A DNA stretch of 64,000 nucleotides from Akkermansiaceae bacterium (GTDB lineage Bacteria > Verrucomicrobiota > Verrucomicrobiia > Verrucomicrobiales > Akkermansiaceae), in assembly GCA_015062005.1 (NCBI GenBank), contig SUVL01000007.1, positions 1-64,000 of the forward strand, written 5' to 3'. A program made the position numbers and the translations under genes. A model generated the notes under the pieces. It searched no databases. It was not told the origin of the DNA and saw nothing but the letters and a program-made list of their open reading frames with translations. This document shows positions 30,683 to 33,335 of the stretch, one piece after another. The stretch's first letter is position 1. Each line of letters opens with the position of its first letter.

Positions 30683-30799
30683 GCCAAAATTAGGCATTTT
30701 GAAAAACTCAGTCCTAATCGTTAAAACCATGAGGGTGCAAGAGCATCAGAATGAACCGCCCCGCCCAGGACGAACCGTGGGCGGGGACAATTGGGGGCT

Positions 30800-30898
30800 T
30801 CACCGCAGCAGCTGCACCGTCTTCACGAAGATTTCAAGTACATACCAGACAATCGCAAGAATTGTCACAACTTTGGTGGGGGTATTATCGTTATTCAT
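30800..30898 (-). CDS. 32-aa single-TM micropeptide MNNDNTPTKVVTILAIVWYVLEIFVKTVQLLR
   Basis: Manually translated; GC-rich hairpins lie just upstream on the same strand. Confidence 0.45.
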   Translation of the reverse strand: MNNDNTPTKVVTILAIVWYVLEIFVKTVQLLR

Positions 30899-31142
30899 AA
30901 CAAAATGCCGCCCCCACGGCACCATGCCGCAGAAGCGGCAGCCGCATTATATGCTCCCGCCCCAAGCACCGTCAAGAAAAACATTCAGGCCGCCTGACGA
31001 CAAGCGCCAAGCGGCCTTAAAGTTAATGAATAACGCCCGGGACCCCTCCCGGGACAAGGCGTTTCCACCCTGCAACCGTATTCAAGCATAGCACCACACC
31101 ATTGTCAAGCAAAAACAGAACCTAAGGAGTTTGCACCCCACA

Positions 31143-31166
31143 CGTGTCCCAAAGATTTGGGACACG
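31143..31166. promoter_or_regulatory. 11-bp perfect palindrome CGTGTCCCAAA-GA-TTTGGGACACG
   Basis: Direct reading; half-site repeated at 31334-31346. Confidence 0.5.
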
Positions 31167-31414
31167 AGGATTTACGGTTGACAATTTACGATTGACGAAT
31201 TGAAAGTTAGCGACTTACGCCGATAGAGACACAAAATGAAAGCTTACTGCCGATGGTGAGGCGTCTGATACCCCACTACGAATTTTCACACAGAATACTA
31301 TGCCTTTATCTTGTTTAGGACTATTTTTCCATAATCTTTGGGACACATATGGCTTGCACCGAGAGTGACAAAGCCAAAATTACGTGCTTGCACCGGCATG
31401 CAATATATGATAGT

Positions 31415-32509
31415 ATGGCGGGTAATATGATACGCAAGCTGAAGGTGGAAGGGATGACGGTATTCCAGCGGCCGGAATCGTTCCATTTTGTGCCGGGAAT
31501 CAACATCATCGTGGGTGGCAATGATTCCGGAAAAAGCCACCTCATGAAACTTTGCTACGCCATCAGCAAATGGGGCTGCGGCGGCAGCCGGCGCGATTTG
31601 CCGGAGGTGTGGGCCGAGGAGAAGCGCCTGCGGCAGGATCTGCTGCGCGTGTTCGGCACGCGGGATCTGACCAGTCTCACCTCGCGCAGCGGGGGGCACG
31701 ATGTGGTGGCCAGGGTGCGCGCCTCGCTGGAGGGCGACAAGGTGCCCCCGGGCACCGCCGACATGGCCTTCACCTTCAAGGCCCACTGCGAGGAAGAAGG
31801 CCTGCGCATCTCCACCATGCCGGAGCGCTACCTGAGCAGCAACGCCGTGTTCCTCTCCCCGCGCGAAGTACTCTCCATCTACCCCTGCTACATGCAGGCC
31901 GGCAAGCGCTACCCGGAGCTGCTGGACTCCGCCAGCTGGGAGCTCTGCCGCGCGCTGGAAACCGAACCCAGCGCCCCCCTGCCCCAGGCCCTGCGCTATG
32001 TGGTGAAACAGATTGAGCAGCTGCTGGGCGGCAAGCTCCAGCGGCGCAATGGCCGCTTCTACCTGCAACGCCCCGGTCAGGAAGCCCTGGAGCTGAACCT
32101 CATTGCAGAAGGCTTCAAGCGCATCGGCACCCTGGGCCTGCTGCTCAGCAACGGCACCGTGCGCCCCGGCACCGCCCTCTTCTGGGATGAACCGGAAATG
32201 AACCTGAACGCCGGCCACCTGCCCCTACTGGTGAACCTGATGATGACCCTCTGCCGCGCCGGGGTGCAGCTGGTGCTCACCACGCACAGCCTCTTCCTGC
32301 TGCGCGAGCTGGTCATCCAGCTGGCTGAGCAGCAGAACCGCAGCGTGAGCCGCCGCTTCTTCGGCCTGCAGGCCGGCCAGGTGGCAGGCCCCCGCGTGAG
32401 CGAAGCCGAGGAACTCGACCAGCTGGCCCACCTGGACAGCCTGGAAGCCGAACAGGAACAGGCAGACCGCTACCTCAGCCTCATGCCCAACCTCAGCGAC
32501 GAAATCTGA
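31415..32509 (+). CDS. ABC/OLD-like (AAA_15/AAA_21-type) ATPase
   Basis: INIIVGGNDSGKSHLMKL (Walker A), ALFWDEPEMNLNAGH (Walker B), VQLVLTTHSLFLLREL (H-loop). Confidence 0.85.
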   Translation: MAGNMIRKLKVEGMTVFQRPESFHFVPGINIIVGGNDSGKSHLMKLCYAISKWGCGGSRRDLPEVWAEEKRLRQDLLRVFGTRDLTSLTSRSGGHDVVARVRASLEGDKVPPGTADMAFTFKAHCEEEGLRISTMPERYLSSNAVFLSPREVLSIYPCYMQAGKRYPELLDSASWELCRALETEPSAPLPQALRYVVKQIEQLLGGKLQRRNGRFYLQRPGQEALELNLIAEGFKRIGTLGLLLSNGTVRPGTALFWDEPEMNLNAGHLPLLVNLMMTLCRAGVQLVLTTHSLFLLRELVIQLAEQQNRSVSRRFFGLQAGQVAGPRVSEAEELDQLAHLDSLEAEQEQADRYLSLMPNLSDEI

Positions 32510-32511
32510 AC

Positions 32512-33276
32512 GTGTTCCAGACCGGTACCAGCTGCGTGGAAGGCCTGCACCGCTTCAATTTCGAAGCGGGGTACTACGTGTGCCGCTTCGAGTGCTCCCC
32601 CTTCTACTCCCACCACGCGCAGAACTTCTGCAACAGCTGCAAGGAGATGGATTTCGTGCTCTACCACCCCGGCAAGAAAGAGCTCTGGCTCATCGAGGTG
32701 AAGGACTACCGCTTCAACGCCCGCCCCAAGGTGCGCGAGCTGGTGGAAAAGCTCTGCCGCAAGGTGCGCGACTGCCTCTTCCTGCTGCGCACGGCGGCCC
32801 TCTGCGCGCCGGAGGAAGAACCGGAGGAAGGCATCTCCCTGCGCGAGATGGCCCGCATGAGCATGCAGGCCCGTCACATCCGCCTGGCCTTCACCATCGA
32901 GCTGGGCAACACCGGACTCTTCCCGCCCAAGGCCCTGCTCTCCACCATCCGCGACCTGCTCTACCGGCAGATGCGCTTCATCGACCCGCAGATGCTCTGC
33001 CTGCCCATCACGGAATCCGGCGGCGCAGGCCCCTGGACCATCACGCCCGCCGGCAATGACCACTCCGCCCGCATCCGCAAGCGCATGGAAACCGCCCAGC
33101 GGGAGCGCGACCACGCCCGCAAGCTGGCCGAGGAACAGGAACGCCACCGCGAGCGCGTGGCCGCACGCAAGCGCCGCAAGGCCCGCAAGAGCCACCTGCC
33201 CCTCTGGAAGCAACGCGCCATGGAACGCGAGGAAGGCAAGACCGGCACCCACGCCGACCGCCGCATGCGGGAATGA
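32512..33276 (+). CDS. PD-(D/E)XK-like putative nuclease with basic C-terminus
   Basis: KEMDFVLYHPGKKELWLIEVKDYRF (D...ExK); 2 bp after ATPase stop, GTG start. Confidence 0.65.
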   Translation: MFQTGTSCVEGLHRFNFEAGYYVCRFECSPFYSHHAQNFCNSCKEMDFVLYHPGKKELWLIEVKDYRFNARPKVRELVEKLCRKVRDCLFLLRTAALCAPEEEPEEGISLREMARMSMQARHIRLAFTIELGNTGLFPPKALLSTIRDLLYRQMRFIDPQMLCLPITESGGAGPWTITPAGNDHSARIRKRMETAQRERDHARKLAEEQERHRERVAARKRRKARKSHLPLWKQRAMEREEGKTGTHADRRMRE

Positions 33277-33288
33277 GTCTACCCCAAA

Positions 33289-33316
33289 AAAAGAGCGGCA
33301 GGATGGCCGCTCTTTT
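33289..33316. terminator. hairpin AAAAGAGCGGC-AGGATG-GCCGCTCTTTT
   Basis: Perfect inverted repeat between convergent genes. Confidence 0.85.
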
Positions 33317-33335
33317 GGAAAATCTGTGGTTCGTA

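Follow-up and report, generated by a model that had tools for sequence, protein, structure and literature searches.

An ABC ATPase and a PD-(D/E)XK-like nuclease, encoded side by side in the window (the whole stretch of 64,000 nucleotides that was analyzed), form a near-universal, single-copy and vertically inherited pair that is under strong purifying selection in Akkermansia. Sequence comparison assigns the pair to HEC-02, a candidate defense family that is already catalogued in PADLOC-DB and not new, and the new point is the near-fixation and vertical inheritance of HEC-02 in this genus, with a lineage-specific tail on the nuclease. The reading that we prefer, at about even odds (probability near 0.5), is that the pair is an ATP-gated DNA nuclease of the HEC-02 family that was acquired by the Akkermansia ancestor and fixed in the core genome, where its role would be DNA surveillance or maintenance.

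The ATPase matches the PADLOC model PDLC04146 with E = 1.9e-63 over residues 1-352, and the HEC-02 ATPase models (2e-63) describe it far better than its Pfam match, AAA_21. The nuclease matches PDLC04145 (E = 1.1e-19) and solely HEC-02 nuclease models, no family being matched in a Pfam search. HEC-02 models are likewise matched by 38/38 nuclease relatives and 31/31 ATPase relatives, taken from Akkermansia, Chloroflexi, Proteobacteria, Planctomycetes, Bacillota and others, and in a genome scan the ATPase lies immediately upstream of the nuclease, in the same order and on the same strand, at 79/79 loci. The window is contig 41 of a draft genome, and the named genome collection places it nearest to MAGs of Akkermansia recovered from the guts of ruminants and deer, in two of which the nuclease is 100% identical. 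The original prediction of an ATPase-nuclease candidate defense pair, with an effector family differing from those recognized, is supported in part. The pair with its PD-(D/E)XK-type effector is borne out, and PADLOC lists it as a candidate defense system, HEC-02, a family other than OLD, Gabija, PARIS or Septu; the PADLOC search proposed with the prediction, in which both proteins match this catalogued family, leaves no claim to a new one.

The two ORFs are present as had been described, with 2 bp between the ATPase stop and the GTG of the nuclease on the same strand, and chance ORFs are excluded because both are conserved (dN/dS about 0.02-0.06). The features of the pair are as follows.

31427..32509, + strand: ABC/SMC-Rad50-type ATPase of the HEC-02 pair, 360 aa, with an alternative start at 31415
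31514..31537, + strand: Walker A GGNDSGKS, residues 30-37, with G30, N32, G35 and K36 invariant in 31 relatives
32105..32113, + strand: ABC-signature-like AEG, residues 227-229, invariant in 31 relatives
32177..32197, + strand: Walker B LFWDEPE, with D254, E255 and P256 invariant in 31 relatives
32285..32287, + strand: H-loop histidine H287 (THS), invariant in 31 relatives
32512..33276, + strand: PD-(D/E)XK-like nuclease of the HEC-02 pair, 254 aa, with a GTG start at 32512
32650..32703, + strand: predicted catalytic core, with D47 at 32650-32652, E62 at 32695-32697 and K64 at 32701-32703
33046..33273, + strand: basic C-terminal tail, Akkermansia-specific, residues ~179-254, about 75 residues

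The ATPase ORF is open from an ATG at 31349, which is not conserved and belongs to the terminal part of an inserted repeat. The common start across the genus is 31427 (MIRKL...), and conservation of the unit in close relatives begins about 56 bp upstream of this position. From the sequence the ATPase is therefore taken to be 360 aa long and not 386, and 31415 appears less likely as its start than 31427. All of the ABC motifs are kept in the 31 relatives compared, which confirms the ABC ATPase predicted from GGNDSGKS, FWDEPE and THS. A helix at the C-terminus of the ATPase (LDxExxQSDRYL) is conserved as well. The AlphaFold model (pLDDT 89.5) resembles the heads of SMC, Rad50 and PtuA proteins without a coiled coil, the best PDB folds including an SMC head (E = 6e-15) and Septu PtuA (E = 2e-13). 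PtuA of Septu (PtuA-PtuB) and of retron I-A/Ec78 is among the closest solved ATPases, and these systems likewise join an SMC/Rad50-head-like ABC ATPase to a nuclease; however, PtuB is an HNH nuclease rather than PD-(D/E)XK, and the ATPases are about 11-12% identical. Gabija and OLD also couple an ABC ATPase to nuclease activity, but through a TOPRIM nuclease fused C-terminally to the ATPase, whereas here the nuclease is a separate PD-(D/E)XK protein and the 360-aa ATPase, in which no TOPRIM match was found, ends after the H-loop region.

The assignment of the second protein to the PD-(D/E)XK superfamily, as first proposed, is supported by a D-x14-E-x-K motif and by residues K44, D47, E62, K64, D65, Y66 and K84, which are invariant in 38 relatives at about 26-30% identity. 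In the AlphaFold model (pLDDT 90.9), with strands at 48-52 and 57-66 followed by a helix at 74-98, the D...(E/D)xK residues that define the superfamily are predicted to sit on neighboring strands within an alpha/beta core. It is very improbable that this protein is instead an RNA nuclease or a structural partner and not a DNA nuclease. This alternative draws on the lack of any significant PDB match for the nuclease by sequence or fold, the best fold matches being sub-significant (E = 0.1-0.8) and including many PD-(D/E)XK enzymes (Hjc, Mus81, EcoRV, PspGI) as well as cap-snatching endonucleases. Against it stands the invariance of K44, D47, E62, K64 and K84 at such low identity, as would be seen in an active PD-(D/E)XK enzyme. 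A search of a viral structure library gave no significant match. The very basic C-terminus noted earlier is seen as a basic, helical tail that terminates in P-x-W-K-x-R... and evolves faster than the nuclease core (dN/dS 0.099 versus 0.019). HEC-02 nucleases outside Akkermansia end near residue 180, and the tail is missing in all 17 non-Akkermansia members of A2 and also in L083, L084 and L095. Separately, cysteines at nuclease residues 24, 28, 40 and 43 (C-x3-C...C-x2-C) are conserved in the Akkermansia rows of the alignment and not in other HEC-02, and may form a metal site.

The nuclease is found in 69/76 genomes of the genus and in 53/55 of those of good quality (ffh: 73/76 and 53/55), almost always as one intact copy, the gene being in two pieces in G183 and carrying an internal stop in G025. 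In an order-wide sample the pair is present in 23/24 Akkermansia genomes and in 3 genomes outside the family, with none among the genomes listed for other genera of the family. Genomes without the genus-type pair are dispersed over the ffh tree, which is explained by losses or assembly gaps, and the pair is not strictly essential since one genome that is 98% complete (G028) is without it. No genus-type pair was found in G035; this genome has a divergent second HEC-02 pair (L075:639-2247), whose ATPase matches PDLC04146 at 1e-104 and which groups among accessory HEC-02 in the tree.

Trees of the ATPase, the nuclease and ffh from 41 species show no conflict between splits with support of 0.95, and their distances are correlated (nuclease-ffh 0.83, ATPase-ffh 0.93; 0/1000 permutations as high). 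Median dN/dS is 0.019 for the nuclease core, 0.059 for the ATPase and 0.037 for ffh. While the Akkermansia form is like other HEC-02 in that both subunits match, in having two genes and no further subunit, and in its catalytic motifs, it differs in being genus-core and vertical, in the ~75-aa basic tail and in forming a separate clade (support 1.0) on a long stem. Between the close species G000 and G011 the dS of the pair is 0.06 and that of ffh is 0.45, which suggests that the pair region was recently exchanged between them.

The neighborhood of the pair is conserved in part, as a single site between menB and ftsH-rsfS-mutS in the A. muciniphila group, where the two genes occupy about 413,070-414,900 of the complete A. 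muciniphila genome G088:C1; outside this group the flanks are clade-specific, although sister species have one or both in common. Descent as a mobile unit was considered and rejected: flanks vary by clade, but sister species keep them, the trees fit vertical descent and other core genes, such as pepP, likewise lose their neighbors. The sampled neighbors are mostly non-defense genes, few of 83 scanned against defense models giving a match, with at least AbiE, a methyltransferase and an IetA-like protein among the best 25 of 88 families.

That the pair is plain HEC-02 anti-phage defense, with an ATPase that recognizes phage DNA or replication structures, a nuclease that breaks down the DNA of phage or host, and a core status that results from constant phage pressure, is a tentative possibility at somewhat less than even odds. 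Both genes match HEC-02, which outside Akkermansia is scattered over phyla and includes plasmid-borne copies, and the divergent pair in G035 is as expected of accessory defense. HEC stands for 'Hma-embedded candidate', that is, genes embedded in Hma defense systems, a discovery context that is not needed for membership. No Hma gene is present among the neighbors identified beside the Akkermansia copies, and searches of viral contigs and phage records gave no phage-borne copy. Some HECs have been validated against phages, among them HEC-04 and HEC-06, according to two papers that cite the primary work (PMC12988326, PMC12111858), while HEC calls were discarded as unverified or unpublished at that time in another study (PMC12409356). 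The literature collection searched gave nothing usable on HEC-02 itself or on transposon fitness data for A. muciniphila. Defense genes are normally patchy and mobile, and a near-universal single copy with an ffh-congruent tree and ffh-like dN/dS is unusual for them (the HsdR restriction model is above cut-off in just 29/76 genomes of the same genus sample); few defense families lie near the Akkermansia copies. With one copy in nearly every Akkermansia species, vertical inheritance and mostly non-defense neighbors, the distribution of the pair fits the defense reading poorly. A constant task is favored by core status and constraint, and defense by family history; on balance constant DNA surveillance or maintenance is slightly more likely than pure phage defense as the selected role. 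Single-copy, vertical inheritance with ffh-like constraint would mean that Akkermansia keeps a constitutive innate immunity or that a defense nuclease has turned housekeeping, and labeling every HEC/PDC match as accessory defense can mislead.

Under the preferred reading of an ATP-gated nuclease with a surveillance or maintenance role, what we infer of complex formation, DNA substrate, gating order, the role of the tail and biological purpose is as follows. By analogy with SMC, Rad50 and PtuA heads, the ATPase would dimerize head-to-head on DNA with ATP held between the subunits, the trigger being an abnormal DNA structure, for example an end, a fork or incoming DNA of an unusual kind. Binding of ATP would then position or release the partner nuclease, whose D47/E62/K64 site would cut the triggering DNA, and the basic tail of the Akkermansia protein may make the hold on DNA firmer or serve to dock the complex.

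A more specific proposal, that an immune nuclease candidate was domesticated by the Akkermansia ancestor into a core maintenance complex, as a functional counterpart of SbcCD/Rad50-Mre11 assembled from HEC-02 components and given a new tail for binding DNA, is doubtful. SbcC-SbcD and Rad50-Mre11 likewise combine an ABC ATPase head with a separate nuclease and process DNA structures, although here the ATPase is without a coiled coil and the nuclease is not a metallophosphoesterase. Against the preferred surveillance or maintenance reading stand the nomination of HEC families as defense systems, some of which protect against phages, the lack of the pair in G028, the apparent exchange of the pair between G000 and G011, and the presence of RuvC throughout the genus sample, so that there is no missing Holliday-junction resolvase for the pair to replace. 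The pair as a simple substitute for SbcCD was also rejected: SbcD, the partner nuclease of Rad50, is patchy, with its model above cut-off in 9/37 Akkermansia genomes, which speaks for the preferred reading, yet 8 of those 9 also carry the pair. Most other genera of the order, in contrast to this 9/37, have an SbcD-like match.

A toxin-antitoxin or abortive unit, in which the nuclease is a toxin restrained by the ATPase as AriB is by AriA in PARIS, is improbable. The ATPase does share the AAA_21 superfamily with AriA and AbiEii, and it precedes the nuclease within one transcription unit, adjoining its effector as in PARIS (AriA-AriB). Its match to AriA (E = 4e-15) is, however, weak and at the level of the superfamily, far below that to HEC-02, AriB is a TOPRIM-type nuclease to which the second protein has no match, and toxin-antitoxin modules turn over fast, whereas this pair evolves very slowly and has been lost from few genomes.

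Two features in the DNA that flanks the pair bear on its limits.

33288..33318, no strand assigned: inverted repeat AAAAGAGCGGC-AGGATG-GCCGCTCTTTT, read directly in the sequence
31138..31352, no strand assigned: MITE upstream of the pair and not part of the system; the spurious ATG at 31349 comes from its right end

The inverted repeat is probably a terminator between the nuclease and the convergent pepP, and the terminator proposed at this place is in that sense visible, but a terminator scan made no call at about 33288-33318. The upstream intergenic DNA is structured, as had been stated, although most of it is an insertion that includes the MITE and the structure stems partly from this element; a structured RNA upstream of the pair was rejected on this ground and because no Rfam family was matched. 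The MITE is about 215 bp long, with terminal inverted repeats (CCACACGTGTCCCAAAGATT.../...AATCTTTGGGACACATATGG) and a 7-8 bp target duplication (ttgcacc), and about 40 full or partial copies are present in this genome. Relative to the sister species G011, window positions 30692-31371 are an insertion of ~680 bp that contains the MITE and other repeated DNA and is bounded on each side by the direct repeat GCCAAAATTA.
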